This document shows, in pieces, positions 17,486 through 31,350 of a stretch of DNA of 64,000 nucleotides. The translations under genes were made by a program, and so were the position numbers. Under the pieces are notes generated by a model, which saw nothing but the letters and a program-made list of their open reading frames with translations, did not search any database and had not been told where the DNA came from. Each line of letters starts with the position of its first letter. Position 1 is the first letter of the stretch. The DNA comes from Alphaproteobacteria bacterium (GTDB lineage: Bacteria; Pseudomonadota; Alphaproteobacteria; Rhizobiales; GCA-2746425): positions 124,001 through 188,000 of the forward strand of contig JANSWZ010000003.1 in the NCBI GenBank assembly GCA_024743215.1. The letters are read 5' to 3'.

Positions 17486-18364
17486 ATGACCGAATTGCAT
17501 TCCTACAAGCCTGAATTGCCAAGCGTCATGGTTGACGATGCCGTGCGTGCCGCGCTGCGGGAAGATCTTGGCCGGGCAGGTGACATCACGACACTGGCCA
17601 CGATTCCGCCTGACGCAATAGCTGATGTCGTCATTGCCTCGCGTGAAGAGGGGGTGCTGTCTGGCATGCCTTTGGCCCGTGCGGCTTTTCGCGCCATCAA
17701 CCCTGACATAGAATTAGAAACCCTGATTGATGATGGCGAAGCGCTTGCACCCGGTGATGTTGTCGCCAGGATCAAAGGCCGGGCACGAGATGTGCTGTCA
17801 GCTGAGCGTGTTGCGCTGAATTATCTTGGCCATATGAGCGGCATCGCAACAGCTACGGCCCAATTTGCCAGAAAAATTGCCCATACCAAGGCCAGAGTTG
17901 TTTGCACCCGCAAAACCACACCCGGCCTGCGCGCCTTTGAAAAATACGCTGTCCGCTGCGGCGGCGGAGCCAACCATCGCTTCGGCCTCGATGATGCGAT
18001 CTTGATCAAAGACAACCACATTGGAGTGGTCGGCAGCGTTGCCGCCACCATTGAGGCGGCGCGGGCTTATATTGGCCATCTGGTGAAAATTGAGGTTGAA
18101 GTCGATACGCTTGAACAATTGGCTGAGGCTCTGCCTGCCAACCCTGATGTGGTTTTGCTCGATAATATGAGTGCCGCTATGCTGGAAAAGGCGGTCGCGA
18201 TGGTAAAAGAGTTAAACCCCGCGACCCGGACTGAGGCTTCCGGTGGGATCAAGCTGGACACGATAGCTGAGAAGGCAGAAGCCGGAGTGGACTACATCTC
18301 CACAGGATGGATCACACATTCCGCACCTGTGTTGGATTTAGGGCTTGATGTAACAATTAAATAA
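17486..18364 (+). CDS. nadC: Nicotinate-nucleotide pyrophosphorylase (carboxylating)
   Basis: 292 residues. Quinolinate phosphoribosyltransferase, which converts quinolinate and PRPP to nicotinate mononucleotide. Core motifs: [15 protein letters not shown] near the start, [36 protein letters not shown] and the C-terminal [20 protein letters not shown] with [10 protein letters not shown]. Last gene of nadABC. An IS5 element begins 31 bp after its stop, so the native downstream boundary of the operon is lost. Confidence 0.97.
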
Positions 18365-18394
18365 AAAGGGTCGGCCTTAAATTCGCTTTATTTA

Positions 18395-19287
18395 TTAGGT
18401 CATGTAGACAAACTGGATTCCCAAATCGGCTAAAATCTGATTCAAGATAGCTTTTGCGGAGGCTATTGTGGCTCGATTGTTGATGGAAGATGCCGAATGG
18501 GCGTTCTTTGAACCGTTTCTTTTGGCCATTCGTGGCCGTGGTGGTCGCCCCGCATCCGATCACCGCGCTGTTTCGGATGCTGCCTTCTGGATTGCTCGAA
18601 CTGGGTCGCCTTGGCTCGACCTGCCTGATGAATTTGGCAAATGGTCGAGTGTCTATCGCCAGTTTCGACGCTGGACGTTGGCCGGTCTGTGGGAGATGAT
18701 CCTGGAGACGCTCAATGAAAGTGGCGTGATGCCCGATTAGGTTCAGATGATCGATAGCACTGTGATCCGAGCGCGCCATCTTGCCGCTGGCGCAAAAGGG
18801 GGACTCAAAAAGAAGGTTTTGGCTACTCAAAAGGTGGCTTTACCATTGCCCGGCAGTCGCAGGCTTGACTGCGACGAGAGGGGACCAAGATCCACCTCAT
18901 TGCCAACGCTCACGGATTGCCTGTCAGGGCGGAAATAACAAGAGGCGAAGTCTCTGACTTCAAAGGCTTCGATGTGTTGGTCGATAACGACCTTCCCGCC
19001 GCCAAAGTGTTTCTAGCTGACCGTGGCTACGACAGCGACCATATCCGCAACACGATAAAGCAGCGCGGTGGAACGCCGGTCATTCCTGGCAAGGTCAATC
19101 GCAAGGTGCCAATCCCGCTCGATAACATAACCTATGCTTTGAGAAACCAAGTCGAGCGGTGTTTCAACAAACTCAAATGCTCACGCCGTTTGGCAACACG
19201 CTATGATAAAACAGCCGCAAGCTATCTTGGCTTCATTCAACTCATCGCAGCTCGAATCTGGGTTAGGAGTTTGTCAACATCACCTAA
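18395..19287 (+). mobile_element. IS5-family insertion sequence (IS427-like), inactivated
   Basis: An 893-bp element bounded by 20-bp imperfect inverted repeats, TTAGGTCATGTAGACAAACT at 18395-18414 and its complement at 19268-19287 (18 of 20 matching). It carries one transposase reading frame broken by a stop codon, a frame change and a 39-bp hairpin insert. The size, two-frame transposase and terminal T-N-A-like flanks fit the IS427 group. It opens the IS-rich island directly after nadC. Flanks do not give a clear target duplication. Confidence 0.8.
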
Positions 19288-19300
19288 CATGTTTGAGTAG
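18468..19300 (+). pseudogene. IS5-family transposase, broken
   Basis: GTG start with GGAGG upstream. Frame 1 (18468 on) gives an N-terminal DUF4096-like part (DEFGKWSSVYRQFRRW) and, after an in-frame TAG at 18738-18740, the first catalytic Asp region MIDSTVIRARHLAAGAKGG. The reading then moves to the -1 frame around 18795-18805 (A4G5 tract, possibly the programmed site of this group) as GFGYSKGGFT. A 39-bp insert containing TGA (18866-18868) follows, then TKIHLIANAHGLPVRAE, the second Asp in FLADRGYDSDHIR and a normal C-terminus (NQVERCFNKLK). At least the TAG and the insert are inactivating. Confidence 0.85.
18845..18883 (+). repeat. Hairpin insert, copy 1 (39 bp) inside IS5 transposase
   Basis: Begins ATTGCCCGGCAG and ends CGAGAGGGG. 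Between them is a perfect 7-bp stem, GTCGCAG (18856-18862) with CTGCGAC (18869-18875), and a 6-nt loop. It splits two adjacent Thr codons of the family motif GGFT-TKIHL; taking out exactly these 39 bases restores that motif. It brings an in-frame TGA. Same ends as copies 2 and 3, but in the opposite orientation relative to the transposase. Confidence 0.8.
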
Positions 19301-19719
19301 ATTTTACTGATTATTTTAAATAATATATTTGATGCTATTCCGACAAATTTATATCTTTATTTTGATTTTTATATTTTTTACGATTTTTTAAAATATTTTA
19401 TTATTTAAATTATGATATTTTCAATTTTAATTAATATAGCTTATGGACATTATTATTATAATGTCAAAATGTATTGAAGTGATTCTTAATCTATTTTTCT
19501 CTTCAATATCCATACTTTTGCAATCCCATCTTACCTGGAGATAAATTTGGTCGTCGAAAATGGCTTATTCTACCTTGGCAGAGCGCTAATGAATTTCGAC
19601 AAATATGCCCACAGTCCAGAAATTTGCATACGCGCATGGCAAGCCCGTTAGCAACCGAAAACCTGCAGGCGGCCAAATTTTCCAAGCGAATATGTTCGTT
19701 CTTGGTCATCTTGCCACTT
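19301..19719. other. AT-rich gene-free stretch with a palindrome
   Basis: No credible gene. From about 19300 to 19500 the DNA is extremely AT-rich, with long T and A runs, far from the composition of the flanking core. It contains a perfect palindrome, GACATTAT-TATT-ATAATGTC (19446-19465). The right part (19500-19719) has more ordinary composition and probably belongs to the decayed IS3 beside it. Confidence 0.5.
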
Positions 19720-20455
19720 CAGGATCGCATTACTTGTAAGCTCGGTCCCGTTGTCCGAGACGGCCATGCAGGGGTAGCCTCGCATCTCAGCAATCCGGTT
19801 CTCAGTTCGAGGGCTACACGGATGCCAGACAGCGACGTATCGACGACGGCCGCAAAGTACTCACGACTGAAGTCGTCGATCACATTCAGAATGTGGAACC
19901 GTCGACCGCACGACAGGCTGTCAGATACAAAGTCGAGGCTCCAACGTTGGCTCGCCTCTGGTGAATGGCCATCGGGTTTCTTGTGCCCAAGGTACGCTTC
20001 CTGCCGCCACGTTTGCGCACAGTCGGACCCTCCTCTTTGTCGATGCGATACGGCCTTTTCCAATTTGCAGACCAATCTTCGCGCTGCAGTAGAATATGCA
20101 GGCGTCGGTGTCCGAACTGCCGTCGCTCCGACGACAAGTCCTTCAGTCGTGCCCGCAAGTCAGTATCTTCCGATCGGGCTGCCGGCCGTCGAGACATACG
20201 AGGATTGATCCCCGCCAAAGCGCAGGCCCGCCGCTGCCGGTATCCTTTCTGCATCATGCCCGAGCCCACGGCGCGACGCCGCGCTCTCGGGTTCAGGGAT
20301 TTTTTTTCAGCATCTCCATCAGTGTGGACACATCCATCATCCGCTCAGCCAGCAGTTTCTTGACCTTGGCATTCTCTGCCTCCAGAGCCTTGAGCTTCTT
20401 CGCAGCCGACACTTCCATTCCGCCAAACTTGGCTCGCCATTTACAAAGGTAGCGT
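19720..20455 (-). pseudogene. Decayed IS3-family transposase (orfA and orfB fragments)
   Basis: Minus strand. OrfA lacks its N-terminus and reads KWRAKFGGMEVSAAKKLKAL then a leucine-zipper-like tail ending at TGA (~20300). OrfB follows in pieces: RQRRACALAGINPRMSRR and RRQFGHRRLHILLQREDW in one frame, then [19 protein letters not shown] and IDDFSREYFAAVVDTSLSG (first catalytic Asp) in a second. A third frame carries GYPCMAVSDNGTELTSNAIL (second Asp). The glutamate region is missing. Several frameshifts make it non-functional. It is related to, but different from, the intact IS3 at 25.4-26.5 kb. Confidence 0.8.
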
Positions 20456-20547
20456 CGCTATTGCCGTTGCTCTGTCACTAGATTTCTCCTCCATTTGGAT
20501 TTGAGTTTTGCCCTTTATCCTGAGGCTGGGAGTAGGGAGCGAAAACG

Positions 20548-20757
20548 ATGAAAGCATCGAGGTTCACGTACGCGCAAAAGGCGTTCATCATTAGTCAGGG
20601 CAACGGGAGAAACCGATTGCCGAGGTCTGTGGGGAAGCTGGTATCAGCCAGGCTTCGTATTTCAACTGGCGCAGGAAGTATGCAGGCTTGATGCCGTCAG
20701 AGATGAAGCGCTTGCGTGAATCAGAAGACGAGAACGGGCGACTGAAGAGGATCGTTG
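20548..20757 (+). pseudogene. IS3-family (IS407-like) orfA remnant
   Basis: Starts MKASRFTYAQKAFIISQG, shifts frame after ~18 codons, and continues as AEVCGEAGISQASYFNWRRK and YAGLMPSEMKRLRESEDENG, the classic helix-turn-helix plus coiled-coil layout of an IS407-group orfA. It ends abruptly near 20757, where FkbM methyltransferase sequence begins, so the element has lost its orfB and right end. A second relic of the same kind, with the same MKAS start and a similar upstream GGCTGGGAG stretch, lies at 24.995-25.056 kb. Confidence 0.7.
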
Positions 20758-20759
20758 CT

Positions 20760-21009
20760 GATGAGTGGTGGGGCAGAAAACCGTGGCGCAGTGTATTTTG
20801 CAACAGGTAACGATGAGCAATCCGAGAGCGTTGAAATCCAAACACTTGATAAAATCGTAACGCTGCAATTATTGGATCACACAGATGCAATGAAAATAGA
20901 CGGTGAAGGTTGGTATATGTTAGTTTTACAGCGTTTTATTGATTTTGCAGATAAAATAATTTGGCCAAAATTTCTCATTGTGAAATCCAAAGGACTTCAA
21001 TATTCATAA
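20760..21009 (+). pseudogene. FkbM-type methyltransferase fragment
   Basis: About 83 codons in one frame: EIQTLDKIV, then DAMKIDGEGWYMLVLQ, which match the FkbM methyltransferase block TLDxIV...D-hhKIDxEG-x-E-hxVL. The N-terminal part, including the SAM-binding glycine loop, is missing, cut by the IS3 relic on its left, and it stops soon after the conserved block. FkbM enzymes O-methylate sugars in surface glycans, consistent with the other genes of this island. Broken and probably inactive. The Gly where many relatives have Val (KIDGEG) may be a further lesion. Confidence 0.65.
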
Positions 21010-21068
21010 ATATCAGAAACAATAACTAAAAATGGTTGAAAATTCATGCAATTTGAATAAATAAATTC

Positions 21069-21848
21069 CTATATATTTAATTTCTTGCAGGCCATTCCAA
21101 GAAAACTGGAGGCTGGAGGTCTGTCATCTAAAAGTCCACTGCGTTTTAGCTTTCCCTGCCAAGCATGTGCTATTATCGTATTTTCGGTAATTCGTGAGTT
21201 GGCCTCAGTGTTATTTGAAGATACCAATATTGATGCTAGTTTTGATGGGATAGGAAAAAACACTTCCGGTGAGCTGGCCTCGCTGATCACGTTATGTTTT
21301 TGTGCATAGTAGGTAAGTGCGCGGGGCCCGATATTTGAACGCACTGAAATATGTGGAATATCCCTGCCCAGCAAAACTTCTATATCACGCCTTGTTCTCC
21401 TGCGCCATGTGGACCAGGGTGTCCTGAGCGGAATGGCTGATATACCTTTGAGGTAATCTTCTGTCATATCTGCTTTTGATGGCAGTCCCAGAACAGCATT
21501 GTTCAACTTTCTATGGCTAACCCAACCAAAGGTATACAATGAGTTTTTCAAGGGTTGAATTTGAAAACAATCCAAATCAACCCAAATACCTTTTTCTTGA
21601 GTCTGCAGTTCGACACGAAAGATGTTAGCAAATAAATTATAACGTTTCGACTTGATGTACCTGTATGAAATATGGTCTTCATCCATAATTTCGCGAGCAT
21701 CACGGACGTTATCGTGCAGACGGGTACTGCGGAGATCATCGGGTCTGTAGCTGTAAATGGTTAACTTATGGCCGACCTCTAGCATGGAGGCAACACAAAG
21801 GCGTTCTAGCCAGGATACTGGGCCTTCCCATAGAGAAACTAAGTGCAT
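21069..21848 (-). CDS. Glycosyltransferase with DXD motif (GT32-like)
   Basis: 259 residues. The short start MHLVSLWEGPVSWLERLCVASMLE, then LTIYSYRP, and the DxD metal/nucleotide-sugar motif in GIWVDLDCFQIQPL (~91-104) match the sugar-binding glycosyltransferase family with DXD motif (OCH1/capsular type). NIGPRALTYYA corresponds to the acceptor-side block of the family. No membrane segment; likely a cytoplasmic enzyme that adds a sugar to LPS or exopolysaccharide. AT-richer than the core genes and flanked by IS debris, so probably acquired. Donor and acceptor unknown. Confidence 0.75.
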   Translation of the reverse strand: MHLVSLWEGPVSWLERLCVASMLEVGHKLTIYSYRPDDLRSTRLHDNVRDAREIMDEDHISYRYIKSKRYNLFANIFRVELQTQEKGIWVDLDCFQIQPLKNSLYTFGWVSHRKLNNAVLGLPSKADMTEDYLKGISAIPLRTPWSTWRRRTRRDIEVLLGRDIPHISVRSNIGPRALTYYAQKHNVISEASSPEVFFPIPSKLASILVSSNNTEANSRITENTIIAHAWQGKLKRSGLLDDRPPASSFLGMACKKLNI

Positions 21849-22159
21849 GATATTTCCATAAGTTTACTGTCCAGCGAGTGACTGTCAAATCACAGAAAGA
21901 ACGCTTATGAGCTATTCTATCTTTAGACGCAAATTTGTTTTTGTTTTGGCCCGTCGACGATTGATGCGGCCAGGTACGTTGGAATAACTCATCAAAGTTC
22001 GTCGGAAAGAATGGGCATATGGCCTGCAATCAAATCCGCATCATTCACAAATTGCGTAGTTACTGAAATCGCTGCAAACCCCAGATAGCTAAAGCGTATG
22101 TGGCGCGACATTAATATGAAAGTACTATTAGGTCGGTTGGAACCAAAACTGCCAATAAC
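21849..22159. other. Gap between glycosyltransferase and IS3, with a truncated reading frame
   Basis: The 311 bp hold no complete gene. On the minus strand, 21992-22159 reads as the C-terminal end of a protein (SRHIRFSYLGFAAISVTTQF and VNDADLIAGHMPILSDEL then TGA), open to the IS3 left end, so the rest of that gene has been displaced or lost. I do not recognise the family. The remainder (21849-21990) should contain the promoter of the glycosyltransferase gene. Confidence 0.4.
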
Positions 22160-22209
22160 TGAACCGCCCCGGGATTGTCGGAGGCTCAAACTCCTGAGAG
22201 GATTGAGCA

Positions 22210-22539
22210 ATGACAAACAAAACAACGAACAAGTTTTCTGCTGAAGTTCGCGCCCGTGCGGTGCGGATGGTTCTGGAGCATGAAGGCGAACACACGTCCC
22301 GCTGGGCTGCGATTGTCTCGATATCGGAGAAGATCGGTTGTGTGCCCCAAACTCTCAATGAATGGGTTAAGAAGGTGGAAGTGGACAGTGGTCAACGCGC
22401 CGGTGTTCCCTCCGAGATGAGTGAGAAGATGAAGGCTCTGGAACGGGAGAACCGTGAGCTTCGCCAAGCCAATGAGATATTGCGCAAGGCGTCCGCATAT
22501 TTTGCTCAGGCGGAGCTCGACCGCCCATTCAAGAGATGA
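22210..22539 (+). CDS. IS3-family transposase orfA (IS51-like)
   Basis: 109 residues: an N-terminal helix-turn-helix ([37 protein letters not shown]) and a C-terminal leucine zipper ([20 protein letters not shown]) used for multimerisation and for joining to orfB. It has a good ribosome-binding site (GAGAGGATTGAGC) and ends 4 bp into orfB (ATGA overlap), where -1 frameshifting gives the OrfAB transposase. The family is clear from the zipper and the downstream partner. Confidence 0.93.
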
Positions 22540-23441
22540 TCGCGTTCATCGACGATCACCGGGAGGACCACGGGGTCGAGCCAATTTGCAGGGTTCTGCC
22601 GATTGCCCCCTCCACCTATCGTCTTCATGCAGCCAAGCGAGTTGATCCAGCAAAATTGTCCTTGCGGGCAAAGCGGGATCTGGCGTTGAAGCCGGAGATG
22701 GCGCGTGTGTTTGCAGATAATTTTGGTGTTTATGGCGTACGGAAAGTCTGGCGGCAAATGCAACGGGAAGGCTTTGATGTCGCCCGTTGTACGGTCGTAC
22801 GGCTGATGAGAAGCATGGGACTGCATGGGGTTATCCGAGGCAAACCCGTGCGAACCACGGTCAGCAACAAGGCTGCACCGTGTCCGCTTGATCACGTCAA
22901 TCGGCAATTCCATGCACCTGCGCCCAACAGGCTTTGGGTGTCTGATTTTACGTATGTGGCCACTTGGAAAGGCTTCGTCTATGTCGCCTTCGTGATCGAC
23001 GTTTACGCTCGATACATCGTGGGTTGGCGTGTCTCACGCACAGCGCATGCAGGCTTCGTTCTGGATGCTCTCGAACAGGCTTTGCATGACCGTGGCCCAA
23101 TTCACCGCAGCGGGCTCATCCACCACAGCGACAGAGGAAGTCAATATGTATCAATAACGTACACCGAACGCCTGGCACAAGCGGGTATTGAAGCATCGGT
23201 CGGGAGTGTTGGAGATTCCTACGACAATGCTCTGGCAGAAACCATCAACGGACTTTACGAGGCTGAAGTGATCCACCGACGCGGCCCATGGCGCAGCTTC
23301 GAAGCTGTCGAATTCGCCACGCTTGAATGGGTCGACTGGTTCAACAACCGCCGCCTACTGGAACCTATCGGCAATATCCCGCCAATTGAAGCCGAACAAC
23401 GCTACTACTCCATGCTGGACGAACCAGCTATCGCAGCATAA
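22536..23441 (+). CDS. IS3-family transposase orfB (IS51-like), DDE integrase
   Basis: 301 residues with an HTH_21 region ([20 protein letters not shown]) and a complete rve-type DDE core: Asp in [13 protein letters not shown], Asp in [12 protein letters not shown], Glu in [15 protein letters not shown]. It is made as a frameshift fusion with OrfA and cuts and joins the 27-bp ends of the element. No frame damage and no hairpin insert, in contrast to three other transposases in this island. Confidence 0.94.
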
Positions 23442-23480
23442 CTTAAGCAAAACAGCCTCCGACAATCCCGGGGCGGTTCA

Positions 23481-23507
23481 AACCTTGTTGGAAACCACAC
23501 CTAAGGC
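23481..23507. repeat. Relic of an IS481-type terminal repeat
   Basis: AACCTTGTTGGAAACCACAC matches the right end of the IS481 element in this window (31185-31207: AACCTTCTTGGAAATCACAC) with two differences, and the following CTAAG also matches. Only the terminal segment is present, right at the border of the IS3 element, so an IS481 copy once lay here and was lost or displaced. Confidence 0.6.
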
Positions 23508-24162
23508 GACTGCACTTAAATTTGATGAAGTCCTTCGGTAGTTCTGACTTGCTGGCGTTAATGTTTCTTGATAATGCTGCATAATGCTGCGCCAATCAGG
23601 AAACAAAGCGACGGTGGAATGCTTTTCATGTGGTTGACAATGATTGATCTTAGGTCCAAGGCATTATAAATGCAATTTCTAATCCTGAGGTGGATGTGTG
23701 AGTCAACTCGATGGAGAGATCAGATTCGAGGATTCATACAATGGACGGTCGGGTGTTGTCGATTGGATAACTCGATTTATGACTGTATTAGCTGAATTGG
23801 AAATTCTAATGACAGATATGGGTATGCATCGGTCAAGGTGGCTGTCAGAAGCAGAAAAGGCCTCATTCGTGATAAGGCTTCGTCCAAAAACCTAAGTGGA
23901 TATTTATGTTTCTGAAAAACGGACAGTTTGTTCGTCTTTTTTGTTAGAAGGATACAGATAAGTTTGGCTATTGTTTTTTTCGGGGATATATTAAATGTTT
24001 GGTGAGTGTGCATTTTTAACACGATATCGACTGAATTAATCGGTAATTTAAGATTTGTCTTTTGTGTTCGGCGATGAAATCCGTTTACCTCAAAACAAAT
24101 ACCGTTTTCATTAATTAAATATAATAAAAAATTAAATTGCCATCATATCAGAGCATTGCATT
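23508..24162. other. AT-rich intergenic stretch, 655 bp
   Basis: Apart from one weak 65-codon frame (23698-23895, separate entry) I see no gene. It contains a short tandem TAATGCTGCATAATGCTGC (23572-23590), long A/T runs and, near 24060-24160, the likely promoter of the P-loop gene. Composition is much more AT-rich than the core and like the rest of the glycan island. Confidence 0.4.
23698..23895 (+). CDS. Short hypothetical protein, doubtful
   Basis: A 65-residue frame from GTG 23698 with GAGGTGGAT just upstream as a fair ribosome-binding site. It contains a predicted amphipathic helix (VVDWITRFMTVLAELEILM) and no recognised motif. It could be a remnant of a larger island gene. Low confidence because the length is near what chance gives in this AT-rich DNA. 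Confidence 0.25.
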   Translation: MSQLDGEIRFEDSYNGRSGVVDWITRFMTVLAELEILMTDMGMHRSRWLSEAEKASFVIRLRPKT

Positions 24163-24864
24163 TTGAATTATTTATTTATTGTGTCTGGGCCCTCCGGTTG
24201 TGGGAAAACTTCGTTTGTGCGCTTGCTGTACCGACGAAAATTAAATAAAGATATTTCAGAACTTCTTCCAGAATGCGTGACGATGGCTTTGAGCATTGAC
24301 GCAAAATATCCTGATCGCGCATTGAAAGGCAGTATGTGTGATCGAAACGGTTGCCCAATTGTGCCCGTTGATGTCATTGATGCAGACCCTGCGAGCTATG
24401 AATGCATCATGTTTCACAATGCTCTTAACAGGTTGGCGAAAAATGGGATAATGCGGTTGTCGCAAGATGCTGCCTTGCTGCGGTTTCTGGCTAGGAATCC
24501 AAGAAAAATTGTTTTGATAAATATTAACACAAGTAGAGAGCAGCTTGTAAAATTCTATACGCATCGTTCGTTTGGGCGAGAAGGGATTGGTCTTTTCAGT
24601 GTTTTGTTGGCTGTTGTAAGCATGCGTCTTGGAAAAGTGCGGACAGCAATCAAATATGGCTATTCAGGATTTACTGAGCAGCTTGAGTCGAGATGGATAC
24701 AGATTCAAAAAGATGTGTTTTTTCATGTTTGGAAACGCAGTCCGGAAACGCAGTTCGTATTGTTGGATATAAGTCCGGTTACAGACAAGAATGGCGTTGA
24801 TGGATTTAGTCTTGATTCCGTCAAAACATTTGACGGAATCAACCCTTGTGTTTTTGATGATTAG
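24163..24864 (+). CDS. P-loop NTPase/kinase-like protein of unknown function
   Basis: 233 residues from TTG 24163. The N-terminal P-loop FIVSGPSGCGKTSFVRLLY (Walker A GPSGCGKT) resembles guanylate-kinase/adenylate-kinase-type nucleotide-binding domains; a hydrophobic strand before KIVLININTSREQLVKFY (~110-130) may form the core sheet, and SFGREG could be a phosphate-contact loop. I do not recognise a named family. It stands alone on the plus strand between IS relics and surface-glycan genes, so it may modify a sugar or act on a glycosyl carrier, but that is only context. Confidence 0.6.
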   Translation: MNYLFIVSGPSGCGKTSFVRLLYRRKLNKDISELLPECVTMALSIDAKYPDRALKGSMCDRNGCPIVPVDVIDADPASYECIMFHNALNRLAKNGIMRLSQDAALLRFLARNPRKIVLININTSREQLVKFYTHRSFGREGIGLFSVLLAVVSMRLGKVRTAIKYGYSGFTEQLESRWIQIQKDVFFHVWKRSPETQFVLLDISPVTDKNGVDGFSLDSVKTFDGINPCVFDD

Positions 24865-24994
24865 ATTTTTTATCGTAAAGATGAATTTGCCACGTAAAAT
24901 GTCTCTAGGAGGTGGCGCGTTTGAAAGCCGAACTTAGGTGATGTGCCTCTTAAAAACGTCCTCAATTTTGGTTAGAGTTTTCCGTTAGTTTTTC

Positions 24995-25056
24995 TTGGCT
25001 GGGAGAGGGGCGGGAACGCATGAAAGCATCAAAGTTCACAGACGCGCAAGTGATTG
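24995..25056 (+). pseudogene. IS3 (IS407-like) orfA start, cut by another IS
   Basis: MKASKFTDAQVI is the first dozen codons of an IS407-type orfA (start 25020), with the same GGCTGGGAG-type leader as the relic at 20.55 kb. The frame is cut at about 25056 by the TGACCTGCTCCCC end of the next IS3 element. Nothing of the remainder is recognisable beyond 26615. Confidence 0.6.
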
Positions 25057-25085
25057 TGACCTGCTCCCCAGATTGTACCCGTTTT

Positions 25086-25349
25086 TCAGCTATCTCTGTT
25101 CCAGTTTTGGTCTTGTGACCGGGTTACAAATTCATTGGGTGTGAGCCCGTTGAGGCTCGTATGTGGTCTTTGAGTGTTGTAGTCAATTCTCCATTCTTGG
25201 ATCATATTTCGGGCTGTTGGCAAGTTTGAGAACACGTGTTCGTTCAGGCATTCATCTCTCAACCGCCCATTGAACCTTTCGACGAAGCTGTTCTGCATCA
25301 TTGCCCGGCAGGCAAGCGAAGCGCCGCCGAGAGGTGGGGTTTTCCCGGT
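25086..25349 (-). pseudogene. IS3-family orfB C-terminal fragment of element A
   Basis: Minus strand. Reading starts in PGKP next to the inner IS3 end, is broken by a 38-bp hairpin insert, and continues MQNSFVERFNGRLRDECLNE with the catalytic Glu (FVERFNG), then NTQRPHTSLNGLTPNEFV, the usual OrfB C-terminus. Compared with the intact element B ([15 protein letters not shown]), only the insert separates P from M. The N-terminal two thirds of OrfB are absent. Confidence 0.8.
25300..25337 (-). repeat. Hairpin insert, copy 2 (38 bp) inside IS3 orfB
   Basis: On the plus strand it begins ATTGCCCGGCAGGCAA and ends CCGAGAGGTGG. In transposase-sense RNA the centre folds as GGCGGCG-CUU-CGCUUGCC, with one bulge and a G-U pair that exists only on that strand. 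It sits between the Pro and Met codons of PGKP-MQN, six codons before the catalytic Glu. Removing 38 bases restores frame and motif exactly (AAA CC|G ATG CAG). Confidence 0.8.
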
Positions 25350-25415
25350 TTGACCTGAGACCCGTTTCTTCATCCATTTTTGAGTAGAATTCGTCCTTTA
25401 TAAGGAGACGAATAA

Positions 25416-25682
25416 ATGAGATCATCACGGTTCAGCGACGAGCAGATCATTGGCATGATAAAGGAGCAGGAAGCTGGGATGCCGACTGCTGAGGTTTGCC
25501 GGAAGCACGGCATCAGCACTGCGTCGTTCTACAAATACAAAGCGAAGTTTGGCGGCTTGGAGGTTTCTGATACCCGCAAGCTCAAAGCACTTGAAGACGA
25601 GAATGCCAAGCTGAAGAAGTTGCTAGCAGAGCAAATGCTCGACAACGCTATGCTGAAGGATGTGAACTCAAAAAAGTGGTAA
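25416..25682 (+). CDS. IS3-family transposase orfA (element B)
   Basis: 88 residues: Transposase_8 helix-turn-helix ([38 protein letters not shown]) and a leucine zipper ([20 protein letters not shown]). It overlaps orfB by 7 bp across an A6G tract (AAAAAAGTGG, near 25671-25680), the expected -1 frameshift site giving OrfAB. Start ATG 25416 with AAGGAGACG upstream. Confidence 0.93.
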
Positions 25683-26515
25683 CACCCGCCGCCAGGAGGC
25701 AAGCCGTGGTTCACTTGTGCCAAGAGCACAGAGTGAGCCAGCGACGGGCGTGTAACGTGCTTCAGATTGATCGCTCTAGTGTCCGCTATAAAAGCGTTCG
25801 CCCTGATGATACGCATTTGCGCGAAGCGATGAAGAAGGTCGCTGCAGAGCGTCGTCGCTTTGGCTACAGGCGTATTCACGTGATGCTGGAGCGTCAGGGT
25901 ATCTTCATGAACCAAAAGAAGCTTCGACGGCTTTATCGAGAAGAGAAGCTGCAAGTGCGTAAGCGTGGTGGTCGTAAACGGGCTTTGGGTACACGCAGAC
26001 CTATGGTTCTACCAAGCAGAGTCAATGAACGGTGGAGCCTCGACTTCGTGTCGGACGCGTTCACCGATGGTCGCCGGTTCCGCGTTCTGGCTGTTGTCGA
26101 TGACTTCAACAGAGAATGCTTGGCACTCGTAGCGGATACATCATTGTCAGGTTTGCGCATGACACGGGAATTGGATGACATCATCAAACAACGTGGGCGG
26201 CCACATACAATTGTCAGCGATAACGGCACCGAGATGACGAGCATAGCTGTGTTGAGGTGGTGTCAGGAAACGGGTATCGAATGGCATTACATAGCTCCCG
26301 GCAAGCCGATGCAGAATGGCTTTGTCGAAAGCTTCAACGGCAGCTTCAGGGACGAATGTTTGAACGAGACGCTCTTCTCGTCATTACCTCACGCACGACA
26401 ACAGATCACCGAATGGAAGGAGGACTACAACATCGAAAGGCCACACTCATCATTGGGCAATATCACGCCCAATGAATTCGCCATGAAAATGGTATTGCAA
26501 AAACTGGCCGCCTAA
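25676..26515 (+). CDS. IS3-family transposase orfB (element B)
   Basis: 279 residues, full length, no breaks. HTH_21 region [17 protein letters not shown], then the DDE integrase core: Asp in [11 protein letters not shown], Asp in [13 protein letters not shown], Glu in [16 protein letters not shown]. Translated as a fusion with OrfA. It is the uninterrupted reference that shows exactly where copy 2 of the hairpin insert sits in element A. Confidence 0.95.
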
Positions 26516-26711
26516 GGTCAAAAACATACCGACGAATTCTCCAAAAGACCGGAGGAGAGTTGGGTCTCAGGTCAAGACTAACTTCAAATCAGGGAGTTTT
26601 CAGGGGAGCAGGTCAATCGGCATGGTTTCTGTTTATGATCAGCTGGAAACATACGGTAAGATCTGCGTCATTTCCATGATCGATACTTTTTCACATTATC
26701 GTTTCACGATT

Positions 26712-27788
26712 TTACTTAGTTAAGATATATAGCCCTCTGCACTTTTCAGGTCTGTCGTAAGAATAATTTAGATTTCCTAAAAAATCACATGATCTAAATT
26801 TTTTTGAATCAAATAATTCTGGATAATCCTCAATTTTTGTGTGGGGGTGAGTTTCAAATATGACGTATTTTTTAATGCATTTTTCTATTATTTCGAATAG
26901 GTTTTTTTTGTTTTTTAGATGTGAATAAATCGAAAATGCAAAAGCAGTGTCGTAGAAACCTGAAATTGGTTTTTCTGGATGATCAATGTCATGTTGTAAA
27001 AAATGAACAGATTTCTCTCGTGCATGTAGAATAGACATCTTATTAGAGAAATTGACTAACTCTTTGGATCTTTCAATTCCGGTGCATTTTTTTGCGCCGT
27101 TGATATTTGCCATTATGCTAGACATCCCGAAATTACTTGCAATGTCTAGAATTTCCATTCCATTTATTGCTTCAGTCGGGATAAGATTGAGGCGTTCAAT
27201 CAAATCAACGCGTCGCCCGGTTACAACCATTCTCTTATTAAAATATATGCTTTGATATGGTTTTCCCTTGTTGCCTTGCCCATAGTACTCTTTCATAGGA
27301 TTGAATATTTTGAGGGCTTTGTTAAATGGCGCGATTTTTACCTCCAAATTCCTATTTGTTGCTAGTGAAAACGCAAGCCGATGATTTCCATCGACGGCAT
27401 ACAAATCATTGTCCCCCAAAAAGGTAGTGAGAAGTGGAGCGCTAGTTGATCGAGAAGAAACAAATAAATTGAGGTGGTCCGCGAATTTATTGATTCTGTC
27501 TTCAATATCCCCATTTTTGCCAGCCCAACTTGCTTGCAGATAATTCCTATATAATTCCTCTTCACTTGATGAGGCCTGTCTTCCGTTTTCCAGGATTGAG
27601 CGAGCGAATTTATAGTGGGGGGTGTCAGCAACGGAGGGTACACCACTAATCCCGATATCCCGAAAAAAAGTTAATGTTTCAGGTTTTATTTGATAAAATA
27701 GAACCTTTTCTATTTCTGACGTTACAATAGTCCGAGTTGGAATTTCCTTCATTGTTTGCATACGATCAAGTTTACGAAAAATACCCAT
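26712..27788 (-). CDS. SAM-dependent methyltransferase with ParB-like N-terminal region
   Basis: 358 residues from ATG 27788, preceded by AGGTGAAAA. The N-terminal half contains DLYAVDGNHRLAFSLATNR (~130-148), the ParB/sulfiredoxin-type motif for binding a nucleotide or phosphate, and the C-terminal half is a class I methyltransferase: GMEILDIASNFGMSSIM (SAM loop), CTGIERSKELVNFSN (acidic ribose ligand) and FYDTAFAFSIYSHLKNK. A fused ParB-like/methyltransferase arrangement occurs in surface-glycan islands. AT-rich, divergent from the pyruvyl transferase gene. Substrate unknown. Confidence 0.65.
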   Translation of the reverse strand: MGIFRKLDRMQTMKEIPTRTIVTSEIEKVLFYQIKPETLTFFRDIGISGVPSVADTPHYKFARSILENGRQASSSEEELYRNYLQASWAGKNGDIEDRINKFADHLNLFVSSRSTSAPLLTTFLGDNDLYAVDGNHRLAFSLATNRNLEVKIAPFNKALKIFNPMKEYYGQGNKGKPYQSIYFNKRMVVTGRRVDLIERLNLIPTEAINGMEILDIASNFGMSSIMANINGAKKCTGIERSKELVNFSNKMSILHAREKSVHFLQHDIDHPEKPISGFYDTAFAFSIYSHLKNKKNLFEIIEKCIKKYVIFETHPHTKIEDYPELFDSKKFRSCDFLGNLNYSYDRPEKCRGLYILTK

Positions 27789-27961
27789 TTTTCACCTCAT
27801 TATTGCCGCTAGTATCAGCCCGCGGGTTTTCATTCGCGGAAATTATTTTAACTCTCAAGCTTGGTAAATTCTATTTCGGCTGTTCGCTTTCATTGCCCCA
27901 CAAATTTGCTTACAGTTGCAAACTCGCAAATCTGTGTCCAACCCCGTCAGCAACGGGAAAT

Positions 27962-28792
27962 ATGTGGATGGCTAACTTTATGAAGCCAATACGTCTGTTT
28001 TGGTCTGGTGGCAATAACAGCATGATCAATTATGGTGATGAACTTTCTGCGGTTATTGTTGCCGCGTTAGGGCAGCGTCAGGTTGTTTACACGAATGCAG
28101 CATCTGCGGATTTGGCAGCCATAGGCAGTATTCTGCACGGTGTATGTCGAAGGCAATGGCGGAGGGCTTTCTATATGCGAAGGCAGCCTATTGTTCTTTG
28201 GGGAACGGGTTCCATCAGATCCGAACCGATGATACGAAATTGTGCTCTTGAAGTTCGGGCCGTCAGAGGACCTAAGACGCTCCGGCTTTTCACGTCTGGT
28301 GGCTTGAAGCCTTTTGGGGATCCGGGCCTTCTGGCTCCTATGCTTCTCGATGGTGCAGCACCAGTCAAAAAATCGGTTCGATGGGGAATTATTCCCCATG
28401 TTGTTGATTTGGAAAACCCTCTTGTGCGAAGGCTTGCCGACGAAAACATGCATTCTAGGGTTATTGATTTACGCAACCCGGATTTGATTTCAACGACGCG
28501 TCAGATTGCCGAATGTGATTTTGTAGTTTCCAGCAGCTTGCATGGGCTTGTGGTCGCTGATGCATTCTCAGTCCCTAACATACGCGCGCGCTTTAGTGAT
28601 CAAATTGCTGGGGGCGATTGGAAATTTGATGATTACGCAGAGAGCATAGGTCGATTAGATATCATGCCAGCGGATTTATATAAGAATTGTAATTTGCAAA
28701 ACTTTGAGGATAAAATCGACATAAAGCACTTTCAAAATATTCCAGCTTTATGCGCTGCTCTTGAAGCTTGCTTTCCGGATGATGTGTTTTAA
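27962..28792 (+). CDS. Polysaccharide pyruvyl transferase family protein
   Basis: About 276 residues from ATG 27962; ATG 27980 (MKPIRLFW) is equally possible, and the longer frame from 27737 overlaps the neighbour and looks spurious. Family blocks: SMINYGDELSAVIVAALGQR near the N-terminus, PIVLWGTGSI, VRAVRGPKTLRLF, and the late FVVSSSLHGLVVADAFSVP, the hallmark SxxHG motif of PS_pyruv_trans. Such enzymes put ketal-pyruvate groups on sugars of exopolysaccharide or cell-wall polymers. It fits the glycosyltransferase and methyltransferase neighbours. Confidence 0.85.
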   Translation: MWMANFMKPIRLFWSGGNNSMINYGDELSAVIVAALGQRQVVYTNAASADLAAIGSILHGVCRRQWRRAFYMRRQPIVLWGTGSIRSEPMIRNCALEVRAVRGPKTLRLFTSGGLKPFGDPGLLAPMLLDGAAPVKKSVRWGIIPHVVDLENPLVRRLADENMHSRVIDLRNPDLISTTRQIAECDFVVSSSLHGLVVADAFSVPNIRARFSDQIAGGDWKFDDYAESIGRLDIMPADLYKNCNLQNFEDKIDIKHFQNIPALCAALEACFPDDVF

Positions 28793-29108
28793 CTCGGCTT
28801 ATTCTCCAAAAAAAGGCACCTATCAAGATGTGCGACCTCTGGAAATCTGTCTGACTTAATAAGTGGCAAAACAGATTGCCGCAGTGCAATCAGACCGAGT
28901 CTGCAAAGGGACCATTATCGACATGGTTTGCAAACGTCTCTCAATCCAAATTTCTCCCTATGTGTGGTTTCTAATGAGGTTGTTCACGATTTTGATTTCA
29001 ACCGACTGATTGGTGTTTTCATATTAATACCAACGGCGCGATTTTCTGACTCTTTTAGGATTCCCAAATCGGTTGTGATCTGATTCCTTATGGCAAAGGA
29101 GATTTGCC

Positions 29109-29630
29109 ATGGGATCATCAGTTCCGCTTCGATCAGATTTTTGCGCCTCCGATCTTCGCCGGATTGCCAAGCGATGCGGCGACAACCGTCAGATACGCAG
29201 ACTGCTTGCGTTGGCAGCCGTATATGAAGGAATGAACCGCATGAATGCTGCACGGATCGGTGGCATGGACCGCCAGACGCTGCGCGACTGGGTGCATCGC
29301 TTCAATGAACAATGGCCGGACGGGTTGACCAATGCCAAGGGTGCCGGACGGCCACGCCTGCTAAACGATGAGCAGATGCAGGAACTGTCGCAGATTGTCG
29401 AAACCGGTCCTGATCTGGAAGTGGGCGGCGTGGTTCGTTGGCGACGCATTGATCTTGTGCGGGTGATTGAAGAGCGTTTCGGTGTGGCGTGTTCCGAGCG
29501 GGCTATCACGGATTATCTGGCAGAACTGGGTTTCTCCAACATGTCTGGCCGCCCACAACATCCAGCGCAAGATGCACGTGTGATTGAAGCTTTCAAAAAA
29601 ACTTCGCAAACACGCTTTCAGCCCACGTAG
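29109..29630 (+). CDS. IS630-family transposase, upstream frame
   Basis: 173 residues: a paired helix-turn-helix region (RRIAKRCGDNRQIRRLLALA, AARIGGMDRQTLRDWVHRFN and the winged helix RVIEERFGVACSERAITDYL). After AAAAAAA at 29595-29601 the zero frame ends soon (TRFQPT then stop), while a -1 shift continues into the catalytic domain. An A7 site in this position is typical of programmed frameshifting in IS630 elements, so this is likely a working gene in two parts, not a pseudogene. Confidence 0.85.
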   Translation: MGSSVPLRSDFCASDLRRIAKRCGDNRQIRRLLALAAVYEGMNRMNAARIGGMDRQTLRDWVHRFNEQWPDGLTNAKGAGRPRLLNDEQMQELSQIVETGPDLEVGGVVRWRRIDLVRVIEERFGVACSERAITDYLAELGFSNMSGRPQHPAQDARVIEAFKKTSQTRFQPT

Positions 29631-30166
29631 CCGATCTGCCCAAGGGAACGCCCGTTGAGATTTGGTTTCAAGATGAAGCCCGGATTGGGCAAAAGAACGG
29701 GCAGGTTCGTATCTGGGCACGTAAAGGAACCCGTCCGCGCCTTCCCGCTGATCAGCGGTATGGCAACACCTATCTATTCGGGGCCATCTGCCCGAAGCGC
29801 GGTACCGGAGCAGCCCTCGTCCTACCCAAGGCTAATACGCAAGCGATGCAATTGCATCTCGACGAGATAAGCAAATACGTTGCCCGGAAAGCCCACGCAG
29901 TGGTCCTGATGGATCGGGCAGGATGGCACAGCACTAGAAAGCTGATCGTGCCCAAAAACCTGACCATCATTCTGCTGCCGTCGAAATCACCCGAACTGAA
30001 CCCTGTCGAGAACGTCTGGCAGTATCTGCGGTCCAACCATCTCTCGAACCGAGTGTTCAAAGATTACACAGCCATCGTCGATGCAGCTTGCGAAGCATGG
30101 AACGCGCTCATCGACAAGCCAAACGTCATCAAATCAATTGGAATGAGAGACTGGGCGCATGTGTAA
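29600..30166 (+). CDS. IS630-family transposase, catalytic frame (DDE_3)
   Basis: Entered by -1 frameshifting at the A7 tract and open to 30166. DDE_3 motifs: first Asp in EIWFQDEARIGQKNG, second Asp in AVVLMDRAGWHST, and the Asp/Glu-Asn block LPSKSPELNPVENVWQYLR. The fused protein would be ~350 residues, the family norm. No internal start is needed. It is one of the transposases in this island that shows no hairpin insert. Confidence 0.85.
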   Translation, partial: NFANTLSAHVADLPKGTPVEIWFQDEARIGQKNGQVRIWARKGTRPRLPADQRYGNTYLFGAICPKRGTGAALVLPKANTQAMQLHLDEISKYVARKAHAVVLMDRAGWHSTRKLIVPKNLTIILLPSKSPELNPVENVWQYLRSNHLSNRVFKDYTAIVDAACEAWNALIDKPNVIKSIGMRDWAHV

Positions 30167-30194
30167 AAGGTCAGAAAATATCGCCGCTGGCATA

Positions 30195-31156
30195 ATGCCT
30201 CCATTGGGTTTTCGCAATTGTAGATGTGTATCCATTTTGGCAACCATGCGTTTCGTGAATGATGCGATTTGAATGGCATGCCGTATGCCCACTCTTCCTG
30301 GAGAGTTTTGATGAACCGTTCCATTGACCGGCAGGCAATCGCGAAGCGAATGCCGAGAGGGGGACTTTCCGTTGGTCTTTGGCGTATATGGTTTTGTGCG
30401 GATATGACGCTGGCCCAATGCAATGGCCGTGTCTCGAAAGACATGAGAGATATAACCAACGCCATTGTCAGTCATCACACGATTGACTTTGACACCCTTT
30501 GAGCCAAACCACTGTGTTGCTCTTTCCAGAAAGCGCGCGCAGGTTTCCCCTTTCTCATCCTCAAGCACTTCCACATAGGCCACACGGGAGTGATCATCGA
30601 TGGCCACATGAACATAATCATATCCAAGGCCTTTGGACCGTTGCCTACCCACCCAACCGGTTACACGGTGTCCCGGCTTGAGGAAACGACCGAGCTTCTT
30701 GATATCCAGATGGATCAAATCACCCGGATGCTCGCGCTCATAGCGACGTACCGGCTCTGGTGGTGTCAGGCGATCAAGCCGGTTCAGACCATATCGCACC
30801 AAGGCAAGTGAGATGGTGGAGCGGGGCAGTTTCAAAGTGCCTGCAATCTCCAGAGCTGTCATGCAAAGGCCCCGCAGTTTGACAATCATCTCCTTCCAGC
30901 CATCCACATAGGCATGCGCATTGTGGTGTGGTTTGCTGGACCGATCCGTCAGGCCTGCAGCTCCCTCATTGCGAAACCGTTGCAGCCATTTGAAGACAGT
31001 GCGCAGGGAAATACCAAAAGACCGTGCAATCTCGACTGCTGACTGGCCGTTGTGATAGCTAACTATAATCTGTTCTCGACTGTAGACGCAAGTGCGGACA
31101 TTCTTATGGGGGTTGTTCATTCCAAGGGCTCCTGAAACCGGTGTGGGTAGCACCAA
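30195..31156 (-). pseudogene. IS481-family transposase, interrupted
   Basis: Minus strand from ATG 31156. HTH regions (SYHNGQSAVEIARSFGISLR, LKLPRSTISLALVRYG), then the integrase core: Asp in PGDLIHLDIKKLGRF, Asp in VMTDNGVGY, followed by TKPYTPKTNGK, where copy 3 of the hairpin insert breaks the frame. The expected (M)ERFIKTLQEEWAYGMPFKS (catalytic Glu) continues in another frame, and a 1-nt loss near TTGCGA returns it to frame at KPNGGI. The last codons (MKTPISRLKSKS) lie beyond the IS630 at 28.99-29.02 kb. Not functional as it stands. Confidence 0.85.
30323..30363 (-). repeat. Hairpin insert, copy 3 (41 bp) inside IS481 transposase
   Basis: On the plus strand it begins ATTGACCGGCAGGCAA and ends CCGAGAGGGGG. 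The sense-strand centre folds as GGCA-U-UCGC-UUC-GCGA-U-UGCC: two 4-bp stems around a U-U mismatch and a 3-nt loop. It lies between NGK and the catalytic ERF motif, one codon before the Glu. The family motif is restored on removal except for about one missing base on the left flank. Confidence 0.78.
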
Positions 31157-31350
31157 CCAGTCTCAAGAATTCAAAGCGAATGAACAACCTTCTTGGAAAT
31201 CACACCTAAGCCTCACTTTTTCCGGATATTGGAATTTTCCTTGTTGCGCTGCAGCAATCTGCGCGGTAGGGCTAGGCACCGTTTGGGAATGCCGGGATTG
31301 AATTCCACATATCCGATGTGGGAATCCAAGTGCATTTGGAGGAGTGCGTT

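Follow-up and report, generated by a model that had tools for sequence, protein, structure and literature searches.

The window analysed here, a 64,000-nucleotide stretch of contig JANSWZ010000003.1 from an alphaproteobacterium of the order Rhizobiales, contains three copies of a short hairpin insert, each lying within transposase sequence of an insertion sequence (IS). The insert is distributed far more widely than the window, and 175 copies with different flanks were assembled, most of them from Rhodobacterales. It is likely that these copies represent a small non-autonomous mobile hairpin element, the stem of which is kept by compensatory change and which occupies 135 distinct target sites. 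Insertion occurs in one orientation, after a weak YCRTC motif and without target duplication. The great majority of the copies with a readable context lie in IS or in other mobile or repeated DNA, and in the two IS sets that were looked at closely a single nucleotide position has received the insert repeatedly in homologous IS copies.

The hairpin inserts of the window

Each window copy reads C-ATTG-N-CCGGCAG, followed by a stem-loop and CGAGAGG. In agreement with the preliminary description of this DNA, the ATTG begins at positions 18845, 25300 and 30323, is preceded by a C in every case and lies on the + strand. Insert 1 (18844..18882, + strand, first noted as 18845-18883) consists of C, ATTGCCCGGCAG, the stem, CGAGAGG and one further base, and is in the sense orientation within an IS5-type transposase gene on the + strand (18465..19300, approximate limits; Pfam DDE_Tnp_1 and DDE_Tnp_1_2). 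Insert 2 (25300..25337, + strand) comprises the core and three bases and runs antisense in an IS3 transposase fragment, the C-terminal part of which adjoins it on the − strand (25089..25298; Pfam rve_3, E 1.7e-25). The corresponding empty target, an uninterrupted homologous IS3 site, is present in a neighbouring IS3 copy (26297..26329, − strand). Insert 3 (30322..30361, + strand; C, core and one base) is antisense in an IS481-type transposase gene, part of which was delimited on the − strand (30290..30862, approximate limits; Pfam rve, E 6.8e-14 for 30365-30859). The family name IS481 is our own reading of the Pfam rve match, and the family names in general were assigned partly by reading.

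Removal of the insert restores, by reading, GFT/TKIH in the IS5 gene and PGKP/MQN in the IS3 gene, for which the homologous site in locus L080 also gives an insert of core plus three bases. In the IS481 gene removal gives NGK/ERF, by reading alone and without an empty homologue compared. These junctions had been proposed previously, as had the core itself; the inserted unit, however, is best read as the core together with the preceding C and one following base. The hosts belong to different IS families and had been described as unrelated in sequence at the insertion points; the IS3 and IS481 hosts share rve-type domains and are distant relatives.

A covariance model built from 12 copies recovers the three inserts at E ≤ 2.4e-7 and has its next match in the 64-kb window at E 4.5, in line with the earlier finding of no further copy. 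The genome contains five hairpin copies in total, three of these in the window. The fourth, on contig C5, has the same core in a second IS5 copy that is 91% identical to that of the window, and the fifth, on contig C9, lies inside an IS30-like gene with a Pfam rve match below the cut-off of that family. The first reading frame of the window IS5 copy has a TAG stop at 18738-18740, where the C5 copy has Gln; the hairpin core is the same in both.

Fold of the element

The element is approximately 37–45 nt long and has constant ends, C-ATTGNCCGGCAG at the 5′ side and CGAGAGG-N at the 3′ side, with a variable stem-loop between them. Among the aligned copies the 5′ end is mostly ATTG, ACTG or GTTG, followed by CCGGCAG. 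The layout consists of outer CC/GG pairs, a conserved 4 × 4 internal loop (GGCA/GAGA) and the variable stem with a small loop. Among the wider matches the ends are kept, with some variation, even in the covariance-model search, which unlike the pattern searches does not demand both of them.

It had been suggested that the fold is kept while the stem sequence differs. Covariation bears this out: pairing is found in 97.7% of cells (108 distinct rows), compared with 46.5–60.0% in slid controls. All six pairs include changes on both sides, 51 cells are changed on both sides and the score was reached by 0 of 500 shuffles, in an alignment that was fitted to the structure and is hence biased toward pairing. 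The outer pairs change jointly from CC/GG to CT/AG in a few copies (L070-L073, L088, L098, L142 and L307) and on one side only in L080 and L087. Individual folds are a poorer guide. When the window copies were folded with their flanks, 7, 16 and 11 of 200 shuffles were equally stable, and the best single fold of the IS3 copy (insert 2) is a different structure. The case for a conserved fold is based on covariation because the single folds are only moderately stable. In the inner hairpin G-U pairs number 52 on the + strand compared with 22 on the complement. Of 115 cores, 51 have the more stable inner hairpin on the + strand and 21 on the complement. Both comparisons weakly suggest that the + strand is the folded molecule.

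Distribution

Among 397 genomes of the order, a strict pattern search found 21 sites in 13 genomes, compared with one match for the reversed-pattern control. By eye, 18 of the 21 sites (10 genomes) are convincing, having the preceding C and a hairpin; L011, L017 and L018, which lack C plus hairpin, were counted as chance. Transposase stretches could be read in the flanking frames of the 18 convincing loci, L014 being assigned on the ground that its flanks resemble those of L015 (L093 in the flank-similarity list). With the covariance model, 13 genomes of the order yield between 1 and 16 matches each at E ≤ 1, although matches near E 1 are partly chance and G004 has a single match at E 0.85. 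The search of the genome and its relatives that had been proposed at the outset finds wider matches with both ends present.

In a species-level collection a stricter pattern gives at least 119 stretches, with titles mainly from Rhodobacterales; Roseibium/Labrenzia, Cohaesibacter, Rhizobium, Neomegalonema and one Hellea record are other carriers among the matches listed. When the class was sampled evenly (290 genomes), six genomes, that of the window among them, matched at E 0.001 with stricter filters, and the canonical form is present in 10 of 100 genomes of the family of G640. Plasmid records match a 44-nt consensus at E 0.01 in 79 of 72,556 cases, 43 of them from the single genus Pseudosulfitobacter. 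Six places match the consensus on pDSHI04 of Dinoroseobacter shibae (NC_009958.1), an 86-kb plasmid of a well-studied strain and a convenient model. The 44-nt consensus had no match in phage records. Viral contigs gave 13 pattern matches, of which only L039, at a transposase gene, has by eye a clear hairpin after C; the other 12 were treated as chance.

The 175 copies derive from the pattern and covariance-model searches, as the best 67 of 84 matches in one set (A2) and all 119 in another (A3), 186 in total, with identical 30-base flanks merged. The covariance model was run on 80 of the 119 listed loci, the remaining 39 serving only as a pool for empty homologues. Both the 175-copy set and this pool rest on the matches listed.

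Insertion sites

Comparison with empty homologues at 47 sites in the fetched loci gives an insert length of core plus two bases at 33 sites, core plus one at 8, core plus three at 4 and core plus six at 2. Removal of core plus two (modulo 3) restores the transposase frame at 25 of 38 distinct sites, the other two lengths doing so at 7 and 6 (binomial p = 4e-5). A six-frame count of open frames over 80 codons is also best for the core with C and one base (37 of 124 distinct sites, versus 19–24 for other lengths) but was set aside, its background being high. At the 135 distinct target sites (174 of the 175 sites used) the 5′ logo is a weak YCRTC before the element's own C, and the 3′ side is mostly GG, partly belonging to the insert.

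No target duplication was seen in the filled and empty pairs, and direct repeats are not in excess in the flanks. Guide-like pairing of the variable stem with the target gave no signal in 131 sites compared with 60 permutations. That the hairpin is not inherited with the IS, as originally proposed, follows from the 47 sites with an empty homologue and from related IS3 copies that hold between zero and three inserts in varying combinations; an empty homologue is found inside the window as well.

Repeated filling of homologous IS copies

The IS3 set, on Leisingera and Phaeobacter replicons, comprises seven copies that are 78.9–94.2% identical, together with L125, for which the alignment is poor beyond the site. 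It has four insertion positions (A–D), filled or empty in different combinations: L305 is filled at A, B and C, L312 at C, L313 at C and D, and L147 and L125 at B, with L309, L310 and L311 empty (L309 and L311 carry annotated IS3 transposase genes). Sites A and D have clean C-core-G insertions after CATC. At site C an identical 37-nt core is found in L305 and L312, and the flanks within approximately 30 bases track the lineage of each copy, L305 resembling the empty L311 and L312 the empty L309. Because the flanks follow their own empty relatives, the hairpin appears to have inserted independently at this one site. In IS21 the hairpins of L151, L155, L173 and L182 all sit at one shared nucleotide position and represent three stem types. 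These filled copies belong to two or more clades, between which empty copies lie, although L151 and L173 group together, possibly as one event, and L182 aligned poorly.

Concentration in mobile DNA

Under a strict homology rule based on 11 seed families, 148 of the 175 copies have a transposase-like open reading frame (ORF) within 350 bases. By this rule and by Pfam searches on representatives the hosts resemble IS3, IS5, IS21, IS66, IS1182, IS630, IS6, IS30, IS110, IS481 and ISAs1, and Pfam adds IS91 as a further one. In loci of at least 7 kb the rule labels 71 of 89 copies, compared with 3 of 175 random positions (Fisher p = 5e-43) and 6 of 175 YCRTCG positions away from the elements (p = 1e-39). 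The comparison is tilted toward the copies, because the rule was seeded from loci that bear the element, and the controls lay more than 1.5 kb from any listed copy, but the gap is still very large.

The 27 unlabelled copies include those at contig ends (L113, L178 and L184) and those in transposase regions recognised by eye, flank similarity or later Pfam searches (L014, L088, L095, L104, L134, L139 and L164). Others are in IS91-type sequence (L081, L160 and L165), in an IS110-type 3′ region (L186, and L166 twice) or in a stretch that is IS256-like by eye (L159). Six copies are in intergenic repeats (L124, L135 twice, L146, L176 and L181), one is beside prophage-like genes (L116) and those in L179, L188 and L189 are without clear context. 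L133 was labelled via an ORF 160 bases away but is also an intergenic repeat. No copy was recognised in an ordinary chromosomal gene or in unique intergenic DNA in the 175-copy set, a few contexts being without a clear reading. Copies also cluster, as 30 of 135 clusters hold 2–4 copies in both orientations with neighbours less than 1.2 kb apart, and the densest has up to four copies within 600 bases.

The preliminary description of a miniature element that has spread into transposases therefore holds for many IS families and needs to be widened to mobile or repeated DNA. The term 'miniature element' is apt in a loose sense, but the hairpin has neither terminal inverted repeats nor target duplication and so is not a miniature inverted-repeat transposable element (MITE).

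The intergenic repeats of Rhodobacteraceae that carry the hairpin (L124, L133, L135, L146, L176, L181 and L220) look like small independent repeats; one of them is 135 bases long and occurs twice in L135. The hairpin at L116:1344-1387, outside any IS, adjoins a terminase-like gene (by eye) and a helix–turn–helix (HTH), antitoxin-like gene.

Effect on the host gene

The hairpin is opposite in orientation to the host gene in 88 cases and the same in 60 (p = 0.03, the copies not being independent); distinct sites with homology on both sides give 25 to 13 (p = 0.07). Insertion probably inactivates the host gene, a reading that comes from small numbers of private changes in the IS3 set, L125 excluded. 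At codon positions 1/2/3 the filled copies have 0/1/2 (L305), 3/2/0 (L312), 10/8/13 (L147) and 13/6/36 (L313) such changes, and the empty copies 1/1/0 (L309), 0/0/1 (L310) and 3/1/14 (L311). Without the long-branch outgroup L313, positions 1 and 2 against position 3 give 24:15 in filled and 6:15 in empty copies (p = 0.03); with L313 counted the decay of filled copies is statistically weak (p = 0.22). The filled L313 carries a stop codon, and the Asp of its DQGSQ motif is changed. The empty L311 shows a single stop where the frame read begins, and apart from its three inserts L305 keeps an open frame throughout the aligned part. It is unlikely that the element is intron-like or bypassed.

Filled IS copies occur at two places in one genome, where 5 of 20 pairs are 99.1–99.8% identical over 852–1589 bases (L023/L026, L070/L071, L096/L097, L230/L236 and L247/L255). 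The interrupted IS is presumably still copied, in trans.

Mechanism and alternative explanations

The folded + strand, as single-stranded DNA (ssDNA) or RNA, would be recognised by an enzyme acting in trans and joined after YCRTC, the enzyme perhaps coming from a rare donor replicon. With its transposase interrupted the carrier IS would be dead alone, yet could be copied in trans by intact relatives and moved between genomes. Less surely, the concentration in IS may mean that mobile DNA is truly targeted, or that the target is a transient state of IS DNA. We consider targeting somewhat better than even over the survival of harmless insertions; it accounts for the excess in IS, for the clustering and for one nucleotide being filled repeatedly. 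A fuller proposal, that the element homes selectively into many unrelated mobile families by sensing a shared state or property and disables their transposases, either as a transposon parasite or as a host-run device that silences transposons through programmed insertion, is tentative.

Several observations weigh against this scheme, the weak statistics of decay among them. Neither candidate enzyme is required for carriage: Y1_Tnp (PF01797, E 1e-5) is found in 6 of 24 carriers and RVT_1 in 13 of 24, compared with 1 and 6, respectively, of 21 non-carriers, these being G004 and 20 genomes that are negative for the strict pattern only, some of which may hold divergent copies. The 1.35 Mb of fetched loci gave no convincing left half lacking its right half that might be the end of an autonomous copy. 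Genomes have no more than 16 matches each, even with E ≤ 1 as the limit, and so low a copy number is unlike that of an actively multiplying element. Over the whole core the strands are even in stability (56 versus 56). Nor is insertion uniformly clean, since at sites B and C of the IS3 set every filled copy differs from every empty one at one target base, perhaps because the junction chemistry replaces it. Reverse transcriptase is present in all of G120, G285, G003, G272 and G640 (7–16 matches) and was not found in G000, G002 and G315 (5 matches each); its presence is to be expected in any genome where mobile DNA abounds. At L204:1241 a right half without a left half (GCAATCTGCCGAGAGGGGC) is possibly a deletion or recombination junction.

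Insertion might instead take place anywhere after YCRTC, with genic insertions purged and those in IS kept and multiplied, IS being dispensable, multicopy and horizontally transferred. This survivorship is a serious possibility, though at less than even chances. It would explain both the harmlessness and the shared hosts, and is in keeping with interrupted copies that look dispensable, with the five near-identical filled pairs and with matches on many plasmids; bacterial group II introns, too, often sit in mobile DNA. Intergenic and dispensable accessory DNA is, however, expected to exceed IS DNA several-fold, and a near-complete vanishing of unique intergenic insertions must be supposed, since, among the contexts that could be read, no copy was recognised there or in an ordinary chromosomal gene. 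The contrast of 71 of 89 copies with 3 of 175 random positions, the clusters of 2–4 despite a low copy number and the repeat filling at one nucleotide also tell against it. A rather improbable alternative is that a few original insertions were passed between IS copies by homologous exchange. Related IS3 copies do share a stem variant at site B and again at site C, and some groups of sites resemble one another in both flanks, several of them in their stems too, but the flanks within about 30 bases of site C follow the lineage of each copy, and exchange leaves new positions and new IS families, 135 distinct target sites in all, unexplained.

Unlikely, too, is movement of the hairpin as ssDNA, in the same cell, by a Y1 (HUH) transposase of the IS200/IS605 kind or of the REP-associated tyrosine transposase (RAYT) kind that serves repetitive extragenic palindromic (REP) sequences. 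The conserved hairpin foot, the one-sided 5′ target motif and the lack of target duplication resemble a REP or IS200-type end, as described in part in PMC8266576, and Y1_Tnp is somewhat commoner in carriers (6/24 versus 1/21). It was not found at E 1e-5 in 18 of the 24, however, G285 with its 12 matches (E ≤ 1) and G640 with its 8 (E ≤ 0.001) being among these, and the copies have no GTAG tag and are not extragenic. A resident enzyme of this kind is largely refuted; one that visited and was then lost could still account for the hairpins. Far less probable is a silent intervening sequence, removed at the RNA level or bypassed by the ribosome, as with an intron or byps, that leaves the transposase functional. 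Several inserts in one stretch and the open three-insert frame of L305 would fit, but the hairpin lies in both orientations to the gene (88 opposite, 60 the same), the filled L312 has five private changes, none at third positions, and L313 has its stop and changed Asp, a counterpoint that is itself weak given p = 0.22 with L313 and the stop in the empty L311. Finally, the hairpin could be a normal part of the IS genes or a chance likeness, an idea refuted by the empty homologues, the single backward-pattern match in 397 genomes and the covariation.

Comparison with known systems

Like REP sequences mobilized by RAYT (TnpA-REP), the element is an imperfect palindrome of 20–40 nt with a conserved foot, and it is probably the folded single strand that is recognised. 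The element differs in lying within IS genes, whereas REPs lie between genes, in its foot (ATTG, not GTAG/CGTC), in its low copy number and in that no Y1 gene was found in 18 of 24 carriers. Of the IS200/IS605 features, the YCRTC 5′ preference is degenerate, there is no duplication and the target base is altered at two of four IS3 sites; unlike these elements it has a single hairpin rather than two distinct end hairpins, no autonomous copy in the fetched loci, and Y1_Tnp in only a quarter (6/24) of carriers. It shares with MITEs that it is short, non-coding, non-autonomous and dispersed, with empty sites, but its ends pair only via the CC/GG at the hairpin base and no target is duplicated.

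Mitochondrial byps are hairpins of similar size inserted in coding sequence; the present element, in contrast, occurs in both orientations and some interrupted copies show signs of decay. Bacterial group II introns are retroelements with a short upstream target motif that are often found in mobile DNA, but the hairpin is far too short for a ribozyme and only 13 of 24 carriers have reverse transcriptase. In integron attC sites the R′ and R″ boxes (RYYYAAC and GTTRRRY) pair with each other; no such boxes were seen in the aligned hairpin copies. Tn5053-type 'res site hunters' and REP-targeting IS are mobile elements that prefer mobile or repeated DNA as target. Each of these is a complete transposon or IS that encodes its own transposase, unlike the 40-nt hairpin, which enters many unrelated IS families. 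The Rickettsia palindromic elements (RPEs) are likewise palindromic elements in protein-coding genes of alphaproteobacteria and, according to PMC3733652, lie in-frame within ORFs that likely encode functional proteins. The hairpin differs in sitting in transposases and in mostly breaking the frame: the commonest cores, 39 and 35 nt, break it when two bases are added, and only cores such as 37 nt keep it. Membership of the REP, MITE, attC, RPE and byps groups was rejected, as the defining features examined are absent. No Rfam family matched at the three inserts with E up to 5 (window 18000-31500), and no description of the hairpin family was found in the literature by subject or sequence, in a search with subscription journals mostly outside its coverage.

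The hairpin looks like a tiny mobile element living on the other mobile elements of marine bacteria and rarely elsewhere. If targeting is true, these bacteria tell mobile DNA apart without a shared sequence, which would be a new route of transposon control or parasitism. Even under survivorship there would be a family of small mobile hairpins that probably inactivates transposases in many marine Rhodobacterales. Annotation could recognise transposase pseudogenes by the hairpin they carry, and the family lends itself to a clean study of how an element of 40 nt moves with no coding capacity.

Elsewhere in the window an ALIL pseudoknot (RF01497, 118 bits) is present at 22494-22610 on the + strand. 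The ALIL pseudoknot is a frameshift signal of IS3-type transposase genes.

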